Assembly: GCF_027571385.1 (NCBI RefSeq)
Contig: NZ_CP085636.1
Span: forward strand, 1,674,001-1,738,000
Length of the DNA: 64,000 bases
Direction of reading: 5' to 3'
Source: Shewanella sp. MTB7
GTDB taxonomy: Bacteria > Pseudomonadota > Gammaproteobacteria > Enterobacterales > Shewanellaceae
Shown: positions 4,700-17,408 of the stretch, piece by piece
Numbering within the stretch: position 1 is the stretch's first letter
How the letters are laid out: each line of letters starts with the position of its first letter
Program-made: the position numbers and the translations under genes
The notes under the pieces: generated by a model
Database searches by the model: none
What the model saw: only the letters and a program-made list of their open reading frames with translations
Told to the model about the DNA's origin: nothing

Positions 4700-5461
4700 A
4701 TGTCGGATGAAAGGCTTGCTGTCATTGGGGTGACGGCGTGCAATCTAGAATTAGGCTTACATCCTTTTAATATTGTGGGTGAGAAATATTTGTTAGCCAT
4801 TGTCGATGCGACTAAAGCTTGGCCATTGGTGATACCTGCACTGGGACACTGTCCAGCTGAGTCGATTCTACCTAGACTCGACGGTATTTTATTTACTGGT
4901 TCACCCTCAAATATCGAACCCCATCATTTTCAGGGGCAACCCAGTGAAGCGGGTACACACCATGATCCTAAGCGAGATTCGACCACACTTCCTTTGCTAA
5001 AAGCTGCCGTTGATGCCGGTGTTCCTGTGTTGGCTATCTGCCGTGGCTTTCAGGAGATGAATGTCATTTATGGTGGCACGCTTCACCAGAAATTACATCA
5101 ATTGGGTGGTTATATTGAACATAGAGAAGATAAAACTAAGCCGGTAGGTGTGCAATATGGGATCTCCCATGAGGTACAGATAGAACCTGGAGGTTTACTC
5201 CACGAGGCGTGGGGTCGTAGCTCTGCAGAGGTGAACTCTGTGCATACTCAAGGCGTAGATCGTCTGGGTGTAGGGTTACGGCCAGAAGCTTTCGCGTCAG
5301 ATGGATTAGTAGAGGCTTTCTCTATTAACAATGCTAAAAATTTCGCATTAGGCGTGCAGTGGCATCCAGAATGGAAGGTACTTGATAATCCTTTTTATAC
5401 TTCCATTTTCAAGTTATTCAGTGATGCCTGTGAACGTCGTGCAATGAACCGAGTGAGATAA
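4700..5461 (+). CDS. puuD: gamma-glutamyl-gamma-aminobutyrate hydrolase
   Basis: A class I glutamine-amidotransferase-fold hydrolase (peptidase C26) of 253 residues. It cleaves gamma-glutamyl-GABA to glutamate and GABA, the last step that removes the glutamyl carrier in the Puu pathway. The nucleophile is Cys114 in AICRGFQEMN, with His222 and Glu224 in GVQWHPEW. These positions agree with those I recall for the E. coli enzyme. AAAGGTG precedes the ATG. The stop codon is one base from the puuA start, so the two are translationally coupled. Confidence 0.93.
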   Translation: MSDERLAVIGVTACNLELGLHPFNIVGEKYLLAIVDATKAWPLVIPALGHCPAESILPRLDGILFTGSPSNIEPHHFQGQPSEAGTHHDPKRDSTTLPLLKAAVDAGVPVLAICRGFQEMNVIYGGTLHQKLHQLGGYIEHREDKTKPVGVQYGISHEVQIEPGGLLHEAWGRSSAEVNSVHTQGVDRLGVGLRPEAFASDGLVEAFSINNAKNFALGVQWHPEWKVLDNPFYTSIFKLFSDACERRAMNRVR

Positions 5462-5462
5462 A

Positions 5463-6812
5463 ATGAAGAAGTTAACCGCTTATTTAAAAGAACATAAGAT
5501 TACTGAAGTTGAGTGCGTGATCTGTGATATGACCGGTATTGCCCGTGGCAAGATTGCACCGGTTGGTAAGTTTATCGATGAAAAAGGCATGAGAATGCCC
5601 GAGAGTGTGCTGCTGCAAACGGTCACTGGTGATTATGTTGAAGATGAGCCCTACGATGCACTATTGGATAAAGCGGATATTGATTTTATTTGTGTCCCCG
5701 ATGAAGATGCGGTGTTTAAGCTGCCATGGACAATTGAAGCAACTGCGCAGGTTATTCATGACACGTTTGACAAGATGGGTAATCCCATTGAACTTTCACC
5801 ACGTAATGTGTTGAAAAAAGTGCTTAAGCTTTATGAAGATAAAGGCTGGAAACCTGTCGTTGCCCCTGAGATGGAATTTTATCTGACCCGCAGAAATGCA
5901 GATCCAGATCAGGCGTTGATTCCACCAGTTGGTCGTAGCGGACGCCAAGAGTCGGGCCGTCAATCTTTCTCTATTGATGCCGCCAATGAATATGATCCGC
6001 TTTTTGAAGATATGTACGATTGGTGTGAAATTCAGGGGCTCGACATCGATACCTTGATCCATGAAGAGGGCACGGCTCAGATGGAGATCAACTTCAGCCA
6101 TGGCGATGCGTTATCACTGGCTGATCAGGTATTTGTATTTAAACGTACCCTACGTGAAGCGGCGCTTAAGCATGATATATGTGCTACCTTTATGGCTAAG
6201 CCTGTCGCCGATGAGCCGGGCAGTGCCATGCATCTGCATCAGAGCATTGTTAATACTAAAACAGGTAAGAGTATCTTTTCTCTGGAAGATGGCACAAAGA
6301 GTCCATTGTTTTTTAGTTTTATCGGTGGCTTGCAAAAATACATCCCTGAATTCCTTCCTCTATTAGCCCCAAATGTAAATTCATTCAGACGTTTTCTTCC
6401 CGGTACATCAGCGCCGATTAACCTCGAATGGGGCGAAGAGAACCGCACTTGCGGGCTTAGAATTCCTGAGTCTTCGCCACAAAATCTCCGCATTGAAAAC
6501 CGTATCGCCGGTGCTGACTCAAACAGCTATTTAGCCATTGCTGCAAGTTTGTTGGCGGGTTATATCGGCATGGTCGATGATGTGAAGCCATCGACCGAAG
6601 TCAAAGGCAGAGCGAACGAGACTCGTCAAAGCATTAGTTTACCGCTGACACTTGAGGAAGCGTTAGCTGTGATGTCTGAGAGTGCGGCGTGTCTTGAATA
6701 TTTAGGTGAAGCATTCACAACCGGTTACATCGCGGTAAAACAAGCTGATTTGGCCAGTTATAAGCGGGTGATAAGCTCATGGGAACGTGAGTATTTGCTG
6801 CTGACAGTATAA
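5463..6812 (+). CDS. puuA: glutamate-putrescine ligase (glutamine synthetase family)
   Basis: A glutamine-synthetase fold enzyme of 449 residues that ligates glutamate to putrescine with ATP in the cytoplasm, the entry step of the Puu route. Visible family signatures are EMEFYLTRR (catalytic Glu region, about 137-145), the AMHLHQSI nucleotide-binding loop, and SPQNLRIENRIAGADSN near 345-360. It is shorter than ordinary glutamine synthetase and lacks the adenylylation-loop sequence expected of GlnA. It starts one base after the puuD stop. Other gamma-glutamyl-amine ligases share this fold, but the neighbours make putrescine the likely substrate. Confidence 0.88.
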   Translation: MKKLTAYLKEHKITEVECVICDMTGIARGKIAPVGKFIDEKGMRMPESVLLQTVTGDYVEDEPYDALLDKADIDFICVPDEDAVFKLPWTIEATAQVIHDTFDKMGNPIELSPRNVLKKVLKLYEDKGWKPVVAPEMEFYLTRRNADPDQALIPPVGRSGRQESGRQSFSIDAANEYDPLFEDMYDWCEIQGLDIDTLIHEEGTAQMEINFSHGDALSLADQVFVFKRTLREAALKHDICATFMAKPVADEPGSAMHLHQSIVNTKTGKSIFSLEDGTKSPLFFSFIGGLQKYIPEFLPLLAPNVNSFRRFLPGTSAPINLEWGEENRTCGLRIPESSPQNLRIENRIAGADSNSYLAIAASLLAGYIGMVDDVKPSTEVKGRANETRQSISLPLTLEEALAVMSESAACLEYLGEAFTTGYIAVKQADLASYKRVISSWEREYLLLTV

Positions 6813-6824
6813 CGAGTAAACGTA

Positions 6825-6852
6825 TTTTCGGGTCATTGGGATGACCCGAAAA
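6825..6852. terminator. inverted repeat after puuA, possible terminator
   Basis: A perfect 12-bp stem (TTTTCGGGTCAT with ATGACCCGAAAA) has a four-base loop. It has no following T-run on the plus strand, so it may be an mRNA-stabilising hairpin rather than a true terminator. Confidence 0.5.
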
Positions 6853-6998
6853 TGTACATATAAAAAGTAAGAGAACATCGTAAAAAGTCTTTGGGTTGGA
6901 TAACAATTTAAGGGTTGGCTGTGCAAACTGCCGATGCGGTTTCAAAGGTGTAGCATTGGTTAAAATAACCGGCTTGGCCGGAAAACAATGACAGATAA

Positions 6999-8138
<1,140 letters not shown>

Positions 8139-8150
8139 TATCGCTTAAGT

Positions 8151-8170
8151 GGGGCAAGGACTCTTGCCCC
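8151..8170. other. stem-loop between potF and potG
   Basis: GGGGCAAG pairs perfectly with CTTGCCCC over a four-base loop and is not followed by a T-run. Hairpins in this place often protect the transcript of an abundant binding protein from 3' decay, which would set potF above potGHI. That role is inferred. Confidence 0.5.
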
Positions 8171-8240
8171 TGAACCACCTTCAACCTCTATAAATTGCTG
8201 AAGCTGCCTTAAGTTTAGACGGCTTTAGTGGAGAAGTATT

Positions 8241-9377
8241 ATGGTTAGCACCTCAAGCGTCATGAATAAACCTATAACAAAGACGCCAAAAAAAGTCCTG
8301 CTTAAGATTGAGCGGGTCAGTAAATTATTTGATGAAGTTCGTGCAGTAGATGATGTGTCTTTGAACATATATCAAGGGGAAATTTTTGCCCTGTTAGGAG
8401 GCTCTGGTTCTGGTAAGTCCACCTTGCTGCGTATGCTGGCAGGTTTTGACAAGCCCTCAGAAGGCCGCATCTATCTCGATGGGGTCGATATTACTGACAT
8501 GCCGCCACACGAACGACCGATCAATATGATGTTTCAATCCTATGCGCTGTTCCCCCATATGTCGGTAGAGCAGAATATCGCCTTTGGATTGAAGCAAGAC
8601 AAGTTACCTAAAGATGAAATTACCTCCCGTGTTAAAGAAATGCTGAAATTGGTGCACATGGAAGAGTATGCCAAACGTAAACCTGCTCAGCTATCTGGTG
8701 GCCAGCGTCAACGGGTGGCATTGGCGCGATCTTTAGCTAAACGTCCCAAGCTGTTGTTGCTCGATGAGCCGATGGGTGCATTAGATAAAAAGCTAAGAAC
8801 TCAAATGCAGCTGGAGGTAGTGGATATACTCGAAGCCGTTGGTGTGACTTGTGTCATGGTGACCCATGATCAAGAGGAAGCCATGACCATGGCCGAACGT
8901 ATTTCGATCATGAATGACGGGTGGATAGCACAAACTGGCTCCCCTATGGATATCTATGAGAGCCCTTCATCGCGGATGGTGGCGGAGTTTATTGGTTCGG
9001 TAAACCTGTTTGAGGGCGAGATAGTGGTTGATAAAGCTGACCACGCGATTATCCAAGCGCCGAATCTGGAGCAGCAATTCTATATCGGACATGGCGTGTC
9101 AACCAATGTAGAAGATAAAACCGTTTGGTTAGCGGTGAGACCTGAAAAAGCTCGTATTACTCGTGAACAGCCAGAAGGTGAGTACAATTGGTGCCAAGGT
9201 GTGGTCGTTGATATCGCTTATTTAGGTGGTATTTCGGTTTATTACATCCGCCTAATGAATGATCAGGTGATCCAATCTGTGATGACCAACAGTGATAGAC
9301 GTTCAGATCCTCCCACGTGGGAAGACAAGGTCTTCATCAGCTGGGAGGCCACCAGTGGAGTGGTCCTCAGATCATAG
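8241..9377 (+). CDS. potG: putrescine ABC transporter, ATP-binding subunit
   Basis: An ABC ATPase of 378 residues. Walker A is GGSGSGKST (about residues 53-61), the signature is LSGGQRQRVALARSLA, Walker B is LLLLDEPMGALD, and the switch histidine follows in VMVTHDQEEAM. A C-terminal TOBE-type domain follows from about residue 290, as in the polyamine and iron import class. It energises uptake through PotH and PotI. The potH start lies 12 bases after the stop. Confidence 0.93.
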   Translation: MVSTSSVMNKPITKTPKKVLLKIERVSKLFDEVRAVDDVSLNIYQGEIFALLGGSGSGKSTLLRMLAGFDKPSEGRIYLDGVDITDMPPHERPINMMFQSYALFPHMSVEQNIAFGLKQDKLPKDEITSRVKEMLKLVHMEEYAKRKPAQLSGGQRQRVALARSLAKRPKLLLLDEPMGALDKKLRTQMQLEVVDILEAVGVTCVMVTHDQEEAMTMAERISIMNDGWIAQTGSPMDIYESPSSRMVAEFIGSVNLFEGEIVVDKADHAIIQAPNLEQQFYIGHGVSTNVEDKTVWLAVRPEKARITREQPEGEYNWCQGVVVDIAYLGGISVYYIRLMNDQVIQSVMTNSDRRSDPPTWEDKVFISWEATSGVVLRS

Positions 9378-9388
9378 GAGGCCATGTG

Positions 9389-10294
9389 ATGAAAAAGTCA
9401 TTAACGTTTAAACTGCCTAAAGGCCAATGCTGGACCATAGGCGTCCCCTATTTCTGGCTACTGTTATTCTTCGTATTACCCTTTGTTATAGTGCTTAAGA
9501 TCAGCTTATCGACAGCAGCCATCTCGATCCCTCCCTATGATTCCTTAGTCAGCTACGCCGATGAATCGCTTAATATTCTGTTGAACTTAGGTAATTTCCT
9601 GCTTATTTTCGATGACTCTCTGTACCTATATGCTTACCTTGGCTCATTAAAGATGGCCTGTATTACCACCCTAGGTTGTCTCTTAATTGGATACCCAATG
9701 GCCTATGCCATTGCTAGAGCACCAAAAGAGAAGCAAGTCTTATTGATTCTGTTGGTGATGTTGCCCTCTTGGACTTCGTTTCTTATTCGTGTGTACGCCT
9801 GGATGGGGATCTTGAGCAACAATGGAGTGGTCAACAATGTCTTAATGTGGCTTGGAGTGATATCTGAGCCAATTCAAATGCTTAATACTAACTTTGCTGT
9901 ATATATTGGCATTATTTATACCTACCTCCCTTTTATGATCTTGCCTCTGTATGCGACGCTGTCTCAGCTTGATGTTAGTTTGCTTGAGGCGGCGTCAGAT
10001 CTAGGATCTCGTTCGCTCAATACCTTCTGGAGGATCACTTTGCCTCTGTCTAAAGGTGGGGTTATTGCGGGCTCCATGCTGGTGTTTATTCCTGTGGTGG
10101 GTGAGTTTGTGATTCCGGAGCTACTTGGTGGTCCGGACTCTTTGATGATAGGTAAGGTACTGTGGCAGGAGTTCTTCAATAATCGCGATTGGCCGGTGGC
10201 ATCCGCGCTCGCTATTGTGATGTTAGGTTTGTTGATCATTCCTATTACCCTGTTTCATCGTTACCAATCTAGAAGTATGGAGAAAGAGGCATGA
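9389..10294 (+). CDS. potH: putrescine ABC transporter, permease PotH
   Basis: An inner-membrane permease of 301 residues with about six transmembrane helices. The EAA loop is in LLEAASDLGSRSLNTFWRITLPLSKGG, where the ATPase docks. A longer frame starts at 9317, but GGAGG at 9377-9381 is seven bases before the ATG at 9389 and the upstream extension has no membrane or family character, so 9389 is chosen. Its last four bases overlap the potI start (ATGA). Confidence 0.92.
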   Translation: MKKSLTFKLPKGQCWTIGVPYFWLLLFFVLPFVIVLKISLSTAAISIPPYDSLVSYADESLNILLNLGNFLLIFDDSLYLYAYLGSLKMACITTLGCLLIGYPMAYAIARAPKEKQVLLILLVMLPSWTSFLIRVYAWMGILSNNGVVNNVLMWLGVISEPIQMLNTNFAVYIGIIYTYLPFMILPLYATLSQLDVSLLEAASDLGSRSLNTFWRITLPLSKGGVIAGSMLVFIPVVGEFVIPELLGGPDSLMIGKVLWQEFFNNRDWPVASALAIVMLGLLIIPITLFHRYQSRSMEKEA

Positions 10295-11118
10295 GTAACA
10301 GATTAAAGAAGATGAGCTTTTCTACCATCATGCTCTGGGCGGGGATGTTTTTCCTTTATGCTCCCATGTTTATCTTAGTGTTCTACTCATTTAACGAGTC
10401 GAAACTGGTGACTGTTTGGGGCGGCTTTTCACCTAAATGGTACGGTGAGTTATTCCGTGATCAGCAGATATTAGATGCGGTGTGGACCAGTTTGCGAGTC
10501 GCTTTTTTTGCATCGACGATGGCGGTGATATTGGGCACGATGGCGGCGTTCGTAATGACGCGATTTAAGCGGTCATGGGGCAAGGCGACGCTCTCGAATA
10601 TGATCACCGCGCCATTGGTTATGCCGGAAGTGATCACGGGTCTTTCGTTGCTGTTACTGTTTGTTCATATGGCAGATCTGTTTGGCTGGCCTGCAGAGCG
10701 TGGCATGTTGACGGTGTGGATAGCCCATTCGACCTTCTGCGCGGCTTATGTCGCCGTGGTAGTGTCAGCAAGGCTACGTGAATTAGATCGTTCTATTGAG
10801 GAAGCGGCTCAAGATTTAGGCGCAACGCCTCTTAAGACCTTTTTCTATATCACGGTGCCGATGATAACCCCTTCACTAATGGCAGGCTGGTTACTCTCAT
10901 TCAGTTTGTCGCTGGATGATCTGGTTATTGCAAGCTTTGCGTCAGGCCCTGGGGCGACGACCTTACCTATGGTGGTGTTTTCCTCTGTACGCATGGGCGT
11001 CTCTCCTAAGATAAATGCCTTGGCTACATTGATCATTCTGACAGTTTCCTTGATTGCCTTTATTTCATGGTATTTTGCAAGACGCAGTGATAAAAAGAGC
11101 TTAGTGCCAGCTATGTAG
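10291..11118 (+). CDS. potI: putrescine ABC transporter, permease PotI
   Basis: The second inner-membrane permease, 275 residues with about six helices. The coupling loop is EEAAQDLGATPLKTFFYITVPM. The start overlaps the potH stop, which implies coupled translation. PotH and PotI form the heterodimeric channel. A hairpin with a short T-run follows at 11144. Confidence 0.92.
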   Translation: MSNRLKKMSFSTIMLWAGMFFLYAPMFILVFYSFNESKLVTVWGGFSPKWYGELFRDQQILDAVWTSLRVAFFASTMAVILGTMAAFVMTRFKRSWGKATLSNMITAPLVMPEVITGLSLLLLFVHMADLFGWPAERGMLTVWIAHSTFCAAYVAVVVSARLRELDRSIEEAAQDLGATPLKTFFYITVPMITPSLMAGWLLSFSLSLDDLVIASFASGPGATTLPMVVFSSVRMGVSPKINALATLIILTVSLIAFISWYFARRSDKKSLVPAM

Positions 11119-11143
11119 CATTTTGATAATTAAATAAAATAAT

Positions 11144-11174
11144 GCATTAAGCTATGGTGGCTTAATGCCTTTTC
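11144..11174 (+). terminator. probable terminator after potI
   Basis: A nine-bp stem GCATTAAGC with GCTTAATGC is followed by CTTTTC. The T-run is short, so some read-through into the second puuB is likely. Confidence 0.6.
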
Positions 11175-11239
11175 AATCTCCCATGCAGGCAATGTGTTCT
11201 TGGTGTGGGATTAAATAAATATGAAAGTAGGTGAAGGTT

Positions 11240-12526
11240 ATGACAAGCATACCTCATGCAGATTCCTATTATGCGGCATCGGCTAATGACAAAGTAGAAC
11301 GGGCACAACTCGCCGACAATATCGAATCCGATGTGTGTATTATCGGTGCCGGTTACACAGGTCTATCTACAGCACTGCATCTGTTAGAGTTGGGCTTTAG
11401 TGTGACCATACTCGAAGCGGCACGTATTGGTTGGGGGGCTTCAGGTCGCAACGGCGGGCAGATCGTCAACAGTTTTAGTCGTGATATTGACTCTATTGAG
11501 AAGACCGTCGGCAAAGAGAAGGGGAAATTGTTTGGTGAGATGGCGTTCGAAGGCTCTCGAATCATTAAAGAGTTAATTAATAAGCACAATATTCAATGTG
11601 ATTTAAAAGATGGTGGTGTGTTTGCTGCCCTTAATCCTAAGCAGATGGGACATCTTGAAGCGCAAAAAGTTCTGTGGGAGAAGCATGGACATAGGGGGCA
11701 TCTTGAGCTGCTCGATGGCAAAGGTATCCGCTCCGTTGTAGGTTCGGAGCAGTACATTGGCGGTTTATTAGATAAGAGTGGCGGCCATATCCACCCTCTG
11801 AATCTGGCATTAGGGGAAGCCGCTGCGGTCGAGTCCTTAGGCGGGGTGATCTATGAGGACTCGGCGGTTATTCGCGTCGATCAAGGGGATAACCCGGTTG
11901 TCCATACGGCAAAGGGGTCGGTTAAGGCTAAGTTTGTAGTGGTGGCGGGCAATGCTTATCTCAATGGCTTGATGCCAGAGCTGCAAGCTAAATCAATGCC
12001 TTGTGGTACTCAGGTACTCACAACAGAGCCATTGAGTGACGAGTTGGCCAACAGCTTATTACCTCAGGACTACTGCGTTGAGGATTGTAACTACTTGCTG
12101 GACTACTTTAGATTATCCGGTGACAAGCGGCTTATCTATGGTGGCGGAGTGGTGTATGGTGCTCGCGATCCTGCGGACATTGAAGCGATTATTCGTCCAA
12201 AGATGTTAGCCACCTTTCCTCAGCTTAAAGATGTGAAGATCGACTTTACTTGGACGGGTAACTTTTTGCTGACGCTGTCGCGTTTGCCGCAAGTGGGCCG
12301 TATCGGTGACAACATCTATTACTCTCAAGGCTGTAGTGGTCATGGTGTGACCTATACACATCTGGCTGGCAAGATATTAGCTGAAGCAATCCATGGTCAA
12401 GCGAGCCGATTCGATGTGTTTGCCAGTTTGCCACACTATCCTTTCCCCGGTGGGCATATGTTCAAGATACCTTTCAGTGCTATCGGCGCTTGGTATTACA
12501 CCATGCGAGATAAGCTGGGGATCTAA
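11240..12526 (+). CDS. puuB: gamma-glutamylputrescine oxidase (second PuuB paralogue)
   Basis: A DAO-family FAD oxidoreductase of 428 residues. Its N-terminus HADSYYAASANDK resembles PuuB more closely than the copy at 1945 does. The dinucleotide fold is IIGAGYTGLSTALH, then RIGWGASGRNGGQ, with SQGCSGHGVTYTHLAGK near the C-terminus. A GTG at 11231 is in frame, but AGGTGA is best placed for the ATG at 11240. It probably oxidises gamma-glutamylputrescine to gamma-glutamyl-aminobutyraldehyde. No aldehyde dehydrogenase (puuC) or GABA transaminase (puuE) is in the window. Confidence 0.87.
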   Translation: MTSIPHADSYYAASANDKVERAQLADNIESDVCIIGAGYTGLSTALHLLELGFSVTILEAARIGWGASGRNGGQIVNSFSRDIDSIEKTVGKEKGKLFGEMAFEGSRIIKELINKHNIQCDLKDGGVFAALNPKQMGHLEAQKVLWEKHGHRGHLELLDGKGIRSVVGSEQYIGGLLDKSGGHIHPLNLALGEAAAVESLGGVIYEDSAVIRVDQGDNPVVHTAKGSVKAKFVVVAGNAYLNGLMPELQAKSMPCGTQVLTTEPLSDELANSLLPQDYCVEDCNYLLDYFRLSGDKRLIYGGGVVYGARDPADIEAIIRPKMLATFPQLKDVKIDFTWTGNFLLTLSRLPQVGRIGDNIYYSQGCSGHGVTYTHLAGKILAEAIHGQASRFDVFASLPHYPFPGGHMFKIPFSAIGAWYYTMRDKLGI

Positions 12527-12542
12527 AGGAACTCCATAAGCC

Positions 12543-12578
12543 AAAGGGCAATGATCTTAGTCAGATTATTGCCCTTTT
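12543..12578 (+). terminator. intrinsic terminator after puuB
   Basis: A ten-bp stem (AAAGGGCAAT with ATTGCCCTTT) over a 15-base loop, ending in TTTTATATTTAT. Confidence 0.8.
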
Positions 12579-12723: not shown

Positions 12724-14520
12724 ATGTTGAAAAAAACAGATACCTCTAATTTTCGATACTTTCTCAATGTGGTTGATTGTCAGCAAGCTTGCCCAGCTCA
12801 CACCCCTATCCCTGAATATATTCGCTTGATCTCCGATAGAAAATACACTGAATCTTATATGCTCAATTGGGAATCAAATGTTTTTCCTGGCATTTTAGGT
12901 CGAGTCTGTGATCGCCCCTGTGAACCAGCATGTCGCAGAGGACGAGTGGAGGAGGAGCCGGTGGCAATTTGCCGACTCAAACGAGTTGCAGCAGATCATA
13001 AAGGCGATATCCTGGCATTAATGCCCGCCATACCTGAAGAGAAAAACGGTAAACATATAGCGCTGATAGGAGCCGGCCCAGCTTCCTTGACCGTTGCAAG
13101 AGACTTACTGCCTCTGGGATATAAGATCACCCTGTTTGATAAAGAGCATAAAGCGGGAGGTATGATGCGCAGCCAGATCCCCGCCTTCAGATTGCCAGAA
13201 ACGGTACTTGATGAAGAGTTGGCATTGATACTGAATATGGGACTCAAGACGAGGTTTGGTAAGACCATTGAGAGCATGAAGGCGTTGCTTGATGAGAAGT
13301 TTGATGCGATTTTTGTTGGCACTGGGGCTCCTCTGGGTAGAGATTTAAACATTCCTGGACGTAAAAAGGCCAGTGAGCATCTGGCCATCGGGATAGATTG
13401 GCTCTCGAGTGTTGCTTTTGATCATACCAATACAATTGAAAAACGGGTCATCGTCCTTGGTGGAGGAAACACCGCCATGGATTGCTGTCGTACAGCACGG
13501 CGCTTAGGCGGCAAGCAGGTAAAGGTAGTGGTTCGCTCGAGTCTGGAAGCGATGAAGGCTTCACCCTGGGAAAAAACCGATGCCATGGCCGAAGATGTTG
13601 AGCTTATCGGTAATCATAAACCGCTTGAGTTTGTGATGCGGGAGGGCAAGTTTGTCGGTGTCTTGTTTGAAGAGGTTCACTCTGTGTTTGATGAAACGGG
13701 CAAGCGAAGTCTCATCGATACAGGTAATACCGTTTTGATGGAGTGTGACAAGGTCTTAATAGCAATAGGGCAAGATACGGCATTTCCTTGGATTGAACGA
13801 GATATCGGTATCACCTTCAATCAATGGGATCAGCCCGTGGTAGCCGATGTTTCACTGCAAGCGAGTTTATCCAATCTCTTTTTTGGTGGTGATGCAGCGT
13901 TTGGTCCTAAAAACATTATTACCGCCGTGGCCCACGGTCATAAAGCGGCTATCTCTATCGATCTTTTCTGTCAGGGAAAAGATCCCATTATTGAGCGGCC
14001 TGTTAGTGGGTTTAATTTAGTTAGCCAGAAAATGGGGATCCATGAGTGGAGTTACCATAACAAGATAAAAGTTGATACGCGGTATACAGTGCCTCATATG
14101 GACCGAAAGCAAGCAGTCAAGCAGTTAGCCAGTGAAGTGGAGCTGGGGTATGACGAGCAGATGGCATTGGCCGAAGCCAGTCGTTGTCTCAATTGCGATA
14201 TTCATACGGTATTTAGTGAAGCTATCTGTATTGAGTGCTCTGCCTGTGAAGATATCTGTCCGGTGGATTGTATTAATTTTATCACGGTCGCTGTTGACGT
14301 AGAGGAGGTCGGTGACGTTAGAGTGTTGGGTCAGCTTAAAGTTAGCGACATCAATCCACAACAAGAGATACTTATCTCAGCCCCACTAAAGACAGGTCAG
14401 CTGATGATTAAAGATGAGGATATGTGTCTTCATTGTGGTCTGTGTGCCGAGCGCTGCCCAACTGGGGCGTGGGACATGAAAAAATTCACCTTAAAAGACC
14501 TAAAGGCTGCAATCCTATGA
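12724..14520 (+). CDS. GltD-like NAD(P)H/FAD oxidoreductase with C-terminal 2[4Fe-4S] ferredoxin domain
   Basis: A protein of 598 residues in three parts. The N-terminal Fe-S helical domain has CQQACPAHTPIPEY, then CDRPCEPACRRG and a further Cys. The middle has tandem FAD and NAD(P) folds (LIGAGPASL near residue 115; LGGGNTAMDCCRTARRLGG near 245), with Arg after the second fold (VVVRSS) hinting at NADPH. The C-terminus carries two Cys clusters, CIECSACEDICP and CLHCGLCAERCP. The first two parts resemble the glutamate synthase small subunit. Its stop overlaps the start of the next gene (ATGA), so it is probably the pyridine-nucleotide module of the oxidoreductase below. Electron direction is not visible. 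Confidence 0.85.
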   Translation: MLKKTDTSNFRYFLNVVDCQQACPAHTPIPEYIRLISDRKYTESYMLNWESNVFPGILGRVCDRPCEPACRRGRVEEEPVAICRLKRVAADHKGDILALMPAIPEEKNGKHIALIGAGPASLTVARDLLPLGYKITLFDKEHKAGGMMRSQIPAFRLPETVLDEELALILNMGLKTRFGKTIESMKALLDEKFDAIFVGTGAPLGRDLNIPGRKKASEHLAIGIDWLSSVAFDHTNTIEKRVIVLGGGNTAMDCCRTARRLGGKQVKVVVRSSLEAMKASPWEKTDAMAEDVELIGNHKPLEFVMREGKFVGVLFEEVHSVFDETGKRSLIDTGNTVLMECDKVLIAIGQDTAFPWIERDIGITFNQWDQPVVADVSLQASLSNLFFGGDAAFGPKNIITAVAHGHKAAISIDLFCQGKDPIIERPVSGFNLVSQKMGIHEWSYHNKIKVDTRYTVPHMDRKQAVKQLASEVELGYDEQMALAEASRCLNCDIHTVFSEAICIECSACEDICPVDCINFITVAVDVEEVGDVRVLGQLKVSDINPQQEILISAPLKTGQLMIKDEDMCLHCGLCAERCPTGAWDMKKFTLKDLKAAIL

Positions 14521-16346
14521 CCCTGTTTCAATCAATTAATGAATTTGTGGTTCGCTTTGCTAATACCAATGGTACCGGCTCGGCAAGTGCTAATAATATG
14601 TTTGCTAAGGCCATAATGCGCATGGGATTACCTGTCAGTGCCAAGAATATTTTCCCCTCAAATATTCAAGGTATGCCGACGTGGTTTGAGGTGAGGATCA
14701 GCGAGAAAGACTTTCTGGGTCGCCGTGATGGTGCGCCGGAAGTGGTGGTTGCGATGAATGCACAGACCATTGCCGATGATATTGAATCAGTGCAGCCTGG
14801 CGGCTTTCTACTTTATGACTCCAGCCGAATTTTACCCCAGAGGTTGATGCGAAAAGAGGTCAACTTTTTGGGCATGCCTATCTCAGATATCTGCCGTGCG
14901 GAATATAGTGATCCTCGTCAGCGCCAGTTGTTCAAAAATGTTATCTATGTTGGTGCTCTTGCCGCCTTGCTGGGCCTTGACTTTAAGGTGCTTAAAGAAC
15001 TGGTATCAGATCAGTTTAAGGGAAAAGAGAAACTTATACGGCCCAATATCTACGCTTTAGAGTTAGGGTTTGAATTCGCCAATAAGCAATTTACTTGTCC
15101 TTTGCCCGTGTGTGTTGAGCGACGAGATTTGATCGGCGAAAGAATTCTAGTTGATGGCAACACAGCGTGTGCCCTCGGGGCGGTTTATGGCGGCGCAACC
15201 GTGGTGGGTTGGTATCCAATTACGCCCTCTACCTCAGTCATTGAGAAGTTTGCTTCCTACTGTCAACGATTACGTATTGACCCTGCCAGCGGGCAAAAAA
15301 ATTACGCCATAGTACAGGCTGAAGATGAGTTGGCTGCCATCGGGATTGCTATGGGAGGTGGCTGGAGTGGTGCACGTGTTTTTACGGCGACAAGTGGCCC
15401 AGGGATCTCGTTGATGACAGAGTTTCTTGGTCTTGCTTATTTTGCTGAAATTCCCTTAGTGCTAATGAATGTTCAACGAGCTGGACCGTCAACTGGCATG
15501 CCCACTCGTACACAACAATCAGATATGTTGACTTGTGCTTATGCCTCTCATGGCGATAGCAAGCAAATATTACTCATTCCTTCAACGCCAAAGGAGTGCT
15601 TCGAGTTCAGTGCGCTGGCTTTTGATTTAGCTGATAGGCTGCAGACCCCGATTATTGTGATGACAGATCTGGATATGGGAATGAACTTTCATCTTAGTGA
15701 GCCTTTTAATTGGGATGATGAACATGAGTATGACTTAGGAAAAGTGTTGGACAGTGATGAGTTAGAGCAGGTCGTCGATTTTGGCCGATATCTTGATGTG
15801 GATGGTGATGGGATCTGCTATCGAACTTTACCGGGGACACATCCGACAAAAGGCGCTTTTTTCACTCGAGGCACATCCCATAACGAGTACGCCGTTTATA
15901 CGGAAAAAGGGGAGGATTATATCCACAATATGGAGCGTCTTGAGCGTAAGTTTATAACTGCACTGCAATATCTGCCCAAGCCTGATATCAATATTAATGC
16001 CAAAGCCAAGCGGGTTGGATTAGTTTTTTATGGTTCGACGGCAGAGGCTATGCCTGAAGCGGTTAGTTTATTGAGTGAGCAAGGCGTTAAGGCCAACACA
16101 TTAAGGATTCGATCTTTTCCCTTCTCAGCACAGATATCAAGCTTTATTCATGAGCATGAGATGGTTTTTATCATTGAACAAAACCGTGACGGCCAAGTGA
16201 GAAAATTACTCTGTAATGAGATGGAGATCGATCCCGCTTCGATGTTTGCTCTGCTGCATTACGATGGTTTGGCTATTACTGCTCAGTTCATTGTCGAAGC
16301 AGTACAAGCTAGGCTGGCAGAACATACGGAACAGGCAGCGAGTTAA
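14517..16346 (+). CDS. korA: 2-oxoacid:acceptor oxidoreductase, fused gamma-alpha subunit
   Basis: A protein of 609 residues. The N-terminal part (about 1-190) is the gamma domain, with RFANTNGTGSASANNMFAKA. The remainder is the alpha chain: GNTACALGAVYGG, YPITPSTSVIEKFA, and the QRAGPSTGMPTRTQQSDML signature typical of 2-oxoglutarate-type enzymes. The frame is open from 14424, but the ATG at 14517 overlaps the upstream stop and begins the conserved domain. With the beta subunit it would interconvert a 2-oxoacid and its acyl-CoA using thiamine diphosphate. 2-Oxoglutarate is the most likely substrate; pyruvate or branched-chain oxoacids are not excluded. Confidence 0.85.
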   Translation: MTLFQSINEFVVRFANTNGTGSASANNMFAKAIMRMGLPVSAKNIFPSNIQGMPTWFEVRISEKDFLGRRDGAPEVVVAMNAQTIADDIESVQPGGFLLYDSSRILPQRLMRKEVNFLGMPISDICRAEYSDPRQRQLFKNVIYVGALAALLGLDFKVLKELVSDQFKGKEKLIRPNIYALELGFEFANKQFTCPLPVCVERRDLIGERILVDGNTACALGAVYGGATVVGWYPITPSTSVIEKFASYCQRLRIDPASGQKNYAIVQAEDELAAIGIAMGGGWSGARVFTATSGPGISLMTEFLGLAYFAEIPLVLMNVQRAGPSTGMPTRTQQSDMLTCAYASHGDSKQILLIPSTPKECFEFSALAFDLADRLQTPIIVMTDLDMGMNFHLSEPFNWDDEHEYDLGKVLDSDELEQVVDFGRYLDVDGDGICYRTLPGTHPTKGAFFTRGTSHNEYAVYTEKGEDYIHNMERLERKFITALQYLPKPDININAKAKRVGLVFYGSTAEAMPEAVSLLSEQGVKANTLRIRSFPFSAQISSFIHEHEMVFIIEQNRDGQVRKLLCNEMEIDPASMFALLHYDGLAITAQFIVEAVQARLAEHTEQAAS

Positions 16347-16355
16347 GGAGGTGCT

Positions 16356-17408
16356 ATGAGTTATATCAAACCACAATTTAGACACCCAAGATTGCAAGTC
16401 AATGATCTTGGCTTAACCCATAGAGATTATGAGGGGGCACTGTCGACCTTATGTGCGGGGTGTGGTCACGACTCTATTACCTCTGCCGTTGCTCAGGCCT
16501 GCGCCGAGTTGTCTCTCCCACCACATCGAATAGCTAAGTTATCCGGCATTGGTTGCTCCTCAAAAGCGCCCAACTATTTTCTTAACAATGCCCACGGTTT
16601 TAATACGGTGCATGGGCGTATGCCTTCGGTGGCAACCGGTGCGAATATGGCGAATCGAGATTTGATCTACTTAGGTATGTCCGGCGACGGAGACAGTGCC
16701 TCGATAGGTTTCGGTCAATTCGCTCATGTGGTGAGACGTCGATTAAATATGCTCTACATGGTGGCAAATAATGGAGTTTATGGATTAACTAAAGGCCAGC
16801 TTGCCGCGACTGCTGAACAGGGGATGAAGAGTAAGTCAGGTGAGGTCAGTTTATTCACTGATATCGATCTTTGCGTCAGTGCGCTGCAGTTTGGGGCGAC
16901 CTTTGTTGCCCGTAGTTTCTCCGGTGATAAATCTCAGTTAGTGCCCTTAATTAAGGCGGCCATCAGTCACAAGGGGTTTGCTTTTATTGATATCATCTCT
17001 CCTTGTGTGACCTTCAATAATAATCCTGAATCTAATCGTTCCTATGACTATGTTCATGATCATATCACCACTGCGGCGGTAGCCGATTTTGTTCCAGTTA
17101 AGCAAGAGATACGTTGTGAAAATGGCCAGTCGGACAGTGAAGATATCTGCCTCCATGATGGCTCAATACTGCGCCTGTCGAGAATCGATGCTGATTATGA
17201 TGCCCACGATAGAATTAAGGCGATGACTAAGATAGAGCAATTTAAATCAGAGGGGAAAATATTGACAGGACTGATGTATATCGATCCTGAAGCGGATGAT
17301 TACCATGAGATAAACAATACGTCAGATACGCCACTGAATTCATTGAAGCAGAAAACTCTGTGTCCAGGTAATCATGTGCTGCAAACCATTAATGAGAGTT
17401 TTAGGTAA
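16356..17408 (+). CDS. korB: 2-oxoacid:acceptor oxidoreductase, beta subunit
   Basis: A thiamine-diphosphate-binding subunit of 350 residues. The cofactor motif is GDGDSASIGFGQF (about 108-120) followed by ANNGVYGLTKGQ. Four cysteines of the [4Fe-4S] site can be placed: LCAGCGHDS, GIGCSS and ISPCVTFNN. A strong AAGGAGGTG site precedes the ATG, nine bases after the alpha stop. The C-terminal 130 residues are longer and more variable than in many homologues. It works with the fused gamma-alpha chain and the Fe-S flavoprotein. Confidence 0.87.
   Translation: MSYIKPQFRHPRLQVNDLGLTHRDYEGALSTLCAGCGHDSITSAVAQACAELSLPPHRIAKLSGIGCSSKAPNYFLNNAHGFNTVHGRMPSVATGANMANRDLIYLGMSGDGDSASIGFGQFAHVVRRRLNMLYMVANNGVYGLTKGQLAATAEQGMKSKSGEVSLFTDIDLCVSALQFGATFVARSFSGDKSQLVPLIKAAISHKGFAFIDIISPCVTFNNNPESNRSYDYVHDHITTAAVADFVPVKQEIRCENGQSDSEDICLHDGSILRLSRIDADYDAHDRIKAMTKIEQFKSEGKILTGLMYIDPEADDYHEINNTSDTPLNSLKQKTLCPGNHVLQTINESFR

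Follow-up and report, generated by a model that had tools for sequence, protein, structure and literature searches.

The subject of this analysis is a three-gene cassette at positions 12724–17408 of a 64,000-nucleotide stretch of the Shewanella sp. MTB7 genome (6.37 Mb, single contig). This whole stretch is referred to here as the window. Open reading frames and domain profiles describe three co-directional genes of the 2-oxoacid oxidoreductase family, which encode a flavoprotein, a fused gamma-alpha subunit and a beta subunit. Their products probably form one soluble complex, a CoA-succinylating 2-oxoglutarate:NAD(P)+ oxidoreductase. The cassette is a real and conserved 2-oxoacid oxidoreductase, which is probably NAD(P)-linked, and its most likely substrate is 2-oxoglutarate. 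The domain make-up, the conservation of the candidate cofactor ligands, and the strict co-occurrence and order of the genes were established by sequence comparison, and the functional assignments all follow from homology. In Shewanella, the complex would be an alternative beside SucA, the E1 component of the 2-oxoglutarate dehydrogenase. In the carriers belonging to f164, a family of small genomes described below, the cassette is probably the only enzyme for the 2-oxoglutarate step.

In the proposed mechanism, 2-oxoglutarate would be decarboxylated on thiamine diphosphate (ThDP) at the interface of the alpha and beta parts. Two electrons would then move by way of the [4Fe-4S] cluster of beta to the flavoprotein, whose C-terminal 2[4Fe-4S] domain would take the role of a ferredoxin or delta subunit, and from there through the N-terminal cluster(s) and FAD to NAD(P)+. 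The CoA, bound by the gamma domain, would release succinyl-CoA. The net reaction would be 2-oxoglutarate + CoA + NAD(P)+ -> succinyl-CoA + CO2 + NAD(P)H.

The three genes are closely arranged on the + strand, as are all the features given in this text. The KorC-like NAD(P)H flavoprotein subunit (12724–14520; 598 aa; Fer4_20, Pyr_redox_2, and Fer4_7; folds nearest to the large subunits of NfnABC/StnABC, GltD, and DPD) is joined to the KorA-like gamma-alpha subunit (14517–16346; 609 aa; POR 14571–15074, POR_N 15177–15668) by an ATGA stop/start overlap at 14517–14520, where the gamma-alpha ATG (14517–14519) lies over the flavoprotein TGA (14518–14520). The KorB-like beta subunit (16356–17408; 350 aa; TPP_enzyme_C and PFO_beta_C; predicted to carry ThDP and [4Fe-4S]) begins after a gap of nine bases, which contains a GGAGG stretch. 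Both the overlap and the gap, read from the open reading frame coordinates, agree with the original prediction made for this stretch. The 4-base overlap of flavoprotein and alpha recurs in 27 of 80 relatives, with start codons chosen by a script.

The arrangement is also retained in other genomes. A scan of a genome-contig collection provided the best 80 of 211 relatives, which are mostly gammaproteobacterial, with some records labelled alphaproteobacterial or Bacteroidetes. These 80 named loci and three further loci of the same genus form a set of 83, after the removal of four duplicates of named loci (87 before). The flavoprotein, alpha, and beta genes have the same order and strand in 80 of the 83 loci, and the remaining three (L025, L054, and L074) start within the cassette at a contig end. 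There is no fourth cassette gene, as every other gene cluster occurs in at most 21 of the 87 loci, the 21-locus one being DNA ligase-like.

The presence of the genes was compared in two genome samples, in which a close alpha was defined by our own cut of at least 49% identity and a flavoprotein match by E <= 1e-90. Among the 185 genomes of the class sample, close alpha was found in 15 and the flavoprotein in the identical 15. The two genes are neighbours on a single contig in 14 of these, and in the fifteenth they lie on two contigs. Twenty further genomes hold distant alpha relatives alone (E 1e-60 to 3e-41), without such a flavoprotein. In the phylum sample of 299 genomes, both genes occur in an identical 16 and are adjacent in all 16, and 55 further genomes have distant alpha relatives alone. 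The samples have two carrier genomes in common, and therefore 29 distinct genomes are represented. The flavoprotein had been predicted to belong to the oxidoreductase, a proposal that would fail if it were mostly encoded apart from alpha and beta, and the opposite was observed. Within the genus of the window, alpha at this level occurs in 8 of 97 genomes, so the cassette is an accessory gene set there. Six carriers among the listed genomes (L150–L152 and L154–L156) belong to one genus outside the class of the window, with 6.9–8.8 Mb and ~63% GC.

Three observations made in f164, namely the loss of SucA, the junction of sdhB with sucC, and the exchange of the cassette for a decarboxylase and a dehydrogenase, together point to the conversion of 2-oxoglutarate to succinyl-CoA. 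The family comprises 40 genomes in four genera, of 0.8–1.3 Mb and with ~33–38% GC in the stretches read. The available text of a study of SAR86 (PMC11582366) describes four families of small low-GC genomes, and f164, with its four genera, fits this description and is probably a SAR86 family. A profile search found SucA in none of the 40 genomes, and SucD in 37 (36 over the cut-off). Alpha is present in 24 of the 40 (E <= 1e-100), in a few as fragments, and the flavoprotein and beta genes stand on either side of it in all 19 loci read (L191–L209). In the genome of the window, which does contain SucA, sdhB is followed by sucA with sucC beyond it. In f164, sdhB abuts sucC directly in all 12 loci read, representing 11 genomes (L212–L219, L227, and L231–L233; L217 and L233 come from one genome).

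The site of the cassette in f164 is flanked by genes which we read as cysteine-desulfurase-like and PurC-like. Alpha is missing from 16 f164 genomes, and nine of these have the site assembled, six of them at >=90% completeness and three others. The count leaves out L231–L234 (G574, G589, G603, and G594), whose contigs end before the site genes, and G570, G580, and G595, which have no SucD match. A gene of ~557 aa for a ThDP decarboxylase-like enzyme occupies the site in all nine genomes (L220–L225 and L228–L230), and it is adjoined by a ~462-aa aldehyde dehydrogenase at six of these sites. Two cassette genomes were read across the whole site, where neither replacing gene was present; no search was made elsewhere in the two genomes. 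For two copies of the aldehyde dehydrogenase, the top solved match is 8cei, a succinate-semialdehyde dehydrogenase (acetylating), with 532 and 535 bits; the next best match reaches 316 and 312 bits, and 8cei is far ahead of the acetaldehyde dehydrogenases for both. A comparable replacement is described in the accessible part of work on a cyanobacterium, in which an operon of 2-oxoglutarate decarboxylase and succinic-semialdehyde dehydrogenase takes the place of the missing complex (PMC5160925). Read in the simplest way, either insert would turn 2-oxoglutarate into succinyl-CoA with formation of NAD(P)H.

The two versions of the site do not follow the division into genera. Where g319 and g171 carry the decarboxylase version, the flank on the desulfurase side shows 95% identity and PurC 67%. 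Within g321, a cassette genome compared with two decarboxylase genomes gives 96–97% for PurC and 83–84% for the desulfurase. Such contrasting flank identities suggest that the site versions moved between genera by recombination. On balance, we lean towards the view that f164 has one exchangeable locus for the 2-oxoglutarate step, occupied either by the cassette or by the unrelated decarboxylase with a CoA-acylating dehydrogenase, that the versions recombined between genera, and that certain abundant aerobic bacteria of the ocean have the cassette as their sole enzyme for this step, linked to NAD(P) and not to ferredoxin. The exchange at this locus seems to be new, as no publication describing it was present among the matches listed.

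The subunits themselves provide further information on the substrate. The gamma-alpha subunit matches TIGR03710 with 558.8 bits, above the cut-off of 482.75, and has the domain order POR (PF01558, gamma, residues 19–186) followed by POR_N (PF01855, alpha, 221–384). The beta subunit reaches 204.1 bits with TIGR02177, under the cut-off of 261.9, which places it as clearly related to this named subfamily, although outside it. Residue conservation was counted over the window and 82 relatives for alpha and beta (83 in total), and over the window and 80 relatives for the flavoprotein (81). The YPITP motif (residues 233–237) and R321, the candidate for binding the carboxylate, are present in 83 of 83, as are C33, C36, C67, and C217 of beta, the candidate ligands of the 2-oxoacid oxidoreductase cluster.

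The pocket was compared with that of StOFOR, the Sulfolobus enzyme, whose residues were mapped via alignments, with Lys49 and Asp468 placed by in-frame reading of the published mutagenic primers. The StOFOR alpha residues Thr256, Arg344, Ser41, and Thr349 (T236, R321, S48, and T326 here) and the beta residues Lys49 and Leu123 (K70 and L144) are kept in all 83. According to the available portion of the StOFOR study (PMC5020499), the change of Lys49 to Ile abolished the activity with 2-oxoglutarate and retained that with pyruvate, Lys49Arg shifted the preference to pyruvate, and Leu123Asn shifted it to 2-oxoglutarate. The same portion reports that the Asp468-to-Ala mutant lost its 2-oxoglutarate activity. 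Considering these mutants, K70 favours 2-oxoglutarate, and T453, which corresponds to Asp468, speaks against it. The pocket residues admit 2-oxoglutarate, and may admit pyruvate too.

A possible, although rather unlikely, alternative is an oxidoreductase that passes electrons to NAD(P)+ from pyruvate or from a broad range of 2-oxoacids, in which case the pair replacing the cassette in f164 would consist of a pyruvate decarboxylase-like enzyme and an acetylating acetaldehyde dehydrogenase. Several observations weigh against 2-oxoglutarate as the substrate. SucA is present in 34 of the 35 other alpha-bearing genomes, and the cassette is thus not needed to close the citric acid cycle in those 34; the sole exception is G272, a single contig of 1.19 Mb which belongs to f164. 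At three of the nine replaced sites, the aldehyde dehydrogenase is absent. The replacing ThDP enzyme (three copies) is matched by NF006187, the NCBIfam model of acetolactate synthase, with 852–859 bits against a cut-off of 509; the cyanobacterial 2-oxoglutarate decarboxylase is acetolactate-synthase-like. The position of Asp468, required for 2-oxoglutarate in StOFOR, holds Thr in 75 and Ser in 8 of the 83 sequences, although a 2-oxoglutarate-specific relative carries Leu there, as stated in the available text (PMC5020499). The E1 of pyruvate dehydrogenase, aceE, exceeded the cut-off in 0 of 40 f164 genomes, in a search that was not aimed at PFOR or at the heteromeric form of pyruvate dehydrogenase. 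The aceE matches in f164 (36 in 35 genomes) are all weak, with 15.9–37.3 bits, and 33 of the 36 lie in ~660-aa frames resembling transketolase. The family also lacks the weak SucA-model matches in ~340–400-aa frames, read as heteromeric E1 alpha, which are frequent in many other genomes. Since no pyruvate dehydrogenase turned up, pyruvate could be a substrate as well in f164.

The pyruvate alternative is further favoured by StOFOR, an enzyme that shares Lys49 and Leu123 with the cassette and takes both pyruvate and 2-oxoglutarate. It is disfavoured by the two dehydrogenases compared above, which are far closer to 8cei than to acetaldehyde dehydrogenases, by the identity of the gene missing between sdhB and sucC, which is sucA, and by the pyruvate-specific DaPFOR, in which the two beta positions are occupied by Ile and Asn (StOFOR and DaPFOR from the available text of PMC5020499). 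The proposal of an NAD(P)-coupled alternative to the 2-oxoglutarate dehydrogenase, made in the original prediction, has gained outside support from the SucA loss and the locus swap in f164, although pyruvate keeps a minor share of the likelihood.

The coupling of the 2-oxoglutarate oxidoreductase to NAD(P)+ is suggested by the flavoprotein. Its N-terminal Fe-S domain (PF14691, residues 18–93, 12775–13002) includes C19, conserved in 80 of 81 sequences, and C23, C62, C66, and C70, conserved in 81 of 81. The FAD/NAD(P)H-binding domain (PF07992, residues 111–405, 13054–13938) is followed by C488-x2-C491 (14185–14196) and by a C-terminal 2[4Fe-4S] ferredoxin-like domain (Fer4_7 and cysteine conservation; residues 502–582, 14227–14469), in which C502, C505, C508, C512, C568, C571, C574, and C578 are each present in 81 of 81. 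R271 and K278, near the pyridine-nucleotide site, are likewise invariant (81/81), and the second Arg of NfnL corresponds to Ser272 here. In long alignments, the C488/C491 motif is found after the FAD domain in NfnA- and StnA-type chains too. With NfnL (5jca), a separate weak stretch (10.5 bits, independent E-value 1.4) aligns C488/C491 to N-terminal residues 16–47. It is probable that these two cysteines serve the N-terminal cluster domain as permuted ligands. Of the two extra C-terminal 2[4Fe-4S] clusters which had been predicted, one C-terminal 2[4Fe-4S] domain is retained, and C488/C491 would rather belong to the N-terminal domain.

The flavoprotein may be described as an NfnA/GltD-type unit with a 2[4Fe-4S] domain that could stand in for an external ferredoxin. 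It remains under the cut-offs of the GltD profiles (TIGR01318, 203 against 482.95 bits; TIGR01317, 167.9 against 447.7 bits). The C-terminal domain, whose top PDB match is the FwdF polyferredoxin, was also considered as a PorD/KorD delta subunit. This assignment found no support as such: TIGR02179 gives 25.7 bits against a cut-off of 60.05 and ranks under several generic ferredoxin models. The predicted flavoprotein structure has a mean predicted local distance difference test (pLDDT) score of 70.0 and a predicted template modelling (pTM) score of 0.66, and it is poor at residues 1–30, ~61–80, and from ~420 onward, so the fold of the Fe-S parts was not used. A further flavoprotein is present in the genome of the window at L021 (G000:C1, from 4530949), where a 1681-aa PFOR-like open reading frame (4950–9995) is followed, from ~10544, by a second GltD-like flavoprotein region with 31% identity to that of the window; here too, a 2-oxoacid oxidoreductase has a flavoprotein gene next to it.

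The closest folds of the flavoprotein, the large subunits of the bifurcating NfnABC/StnABC, permit another reading, in which it works in reverse or bifurcates, so that NAD(P)H and the 2-oxoacid centre together reduce ferredoxin or the enzyme carries out a reductive carboxylation. This is improbable, because no fourth gene accompanies the cassette. Redox potentials disfavour a reductive carboxylase working on NAD(P)H alone, which does not reduce strongly enough for the carboxylation of succinyl-CoA. The Nfn/Stn subunits (9bov, 9n5u, and 8oh5) resemble the cassette flavoprotein in the N-terminal cluster domain, the GltD-type FAD domain, and the C-x2-C after it; however, they work in bifurcating complexes with other partners, and no Nfn/Stn partner genes recur beside the cassette.

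An oxidoreductase of aromatic or branched-chain 2-oxoacids, similar to those of indolepyruvate or phenylglyoxylate, is the least probable of the readings and a very distant one. It shares the superfamily with the cassette, and the PadG and PadI models (NF045764, NF045766) of the NADH-dependent phenylglyoxylate dehydrogenase give weak matches; with 51.6 and 24.4 bits, these stay far under the cut-offs of 700, and no aromatic-pathway gene was found among the 20 named neighbour clusters. The phenylglyoxylate:NAD+ oxidoreductase PadEFGHI, which has five genes and its own NAD-linked flavoprotein, differs from the cassette in its substrate.

The neighbourhood of the cassette in the window had also led to the idea of a link with putrescine catabolism. 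Open reading frames at 8241–12526 were read as a putrescine-type ATP-binding cassette (ABC) transporter and a puuB-like FAD oxidase, the top NCBIfam match of the latter being the L-pipecolate oxidase AmaA (209.1 bits, cut-off 600). A terminator-like hairpin with a 15-pair stem and a T-rich tail lies between the puuB-like gene and the cassette (12543–12577); the scan gave 5 such sites against 3.9 expected, so this class of match alone is not significant. Among the loci read, the puuB-like gene stands beside the cassette only in Shewanella. It lies 197 bases away from the flavoprotein gene in the window, and 235–2587 bases away in seven measured Shewanella loci (six distinct, as L016 and L026 are one contig). 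A chemotaxis-receptor-cluster gene lies between the two genes in L014, L018, L019, L022, L023, and L024, and no puuB match was found in L020 of the same genus. Elsewhere, the neighbours are LigA/ZipA/SMC-type, PhoR/PhoU and phosphate-transport, PheT-type, NYN-domain, or ammonium-transporter genes. Together, the hairpin, the restriction of the puuB-like gene to Shewanella, the variable distance, the intervening genes, and the different neighbours speak against a putrescine operon link, and the predicted tie was dropped. The named neighbours give no clue to the substrate.

The enzyme kind is already known from KorABC of Azoarcus evansii, a three-subunit 2-oxoglutarate:NADP+ oxidoreductase linked to anaerobic benzoate metabolism. 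It is similar to the cassette in having a dedicated flavoprotein encoded with alpha and beta, although that flavoprotein has ~48 kDa, compared with ~65 kDa (598 aa) here. The fused gamma-alpha and beta subunits, the YPITP motif, and the beta cluster cysteines are shared with 6n2n/6n2o, which we take to be the Magnetococcus 2-oxoacid:ferredoxin oxidoreductase, and with StOFOR (5b46–5b48). In the available account of StOFOR, the enzyme lacks a flavoprotein subunit, and its acceptor is an external ferredoxin (PMC5020499). KorAB of Mycobacterium tuberculosis is comparable as an enzyme of an aerobe with fused alpha-gamma and beta subunits and CoA-dependent oxidation of 2-oxoglutarate; in contrast to the cassette, its operon has no flavoprotein described in the available text, and the reduction of NAD+/NADP+ was not measurable in extracts (PMC2773412).

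The SAR86 study names such genes 2-oxoglutarate ferredoxin oxidoreductases and derives a reduced-ferredoxin physiology from this name, and the words flavoprotein and NADP were not found in its main text as available (PMC11582366). If the cassette is NAD(P)-linked, this inference for SAR86 changes, and aerobes would have, in a small iron-sulphur/flavin enzyme, a true substitute for the multi-megadalton 2-oxoglutarate dehydrogenase. What deserves further attention is the spread of the cassette in genomes that contain SucA as well, together with the exchangeable locus of the streamlined family. The locus swap provides a natural comparison between two chemical solutions for a single metabolic step within one shared genomic context.

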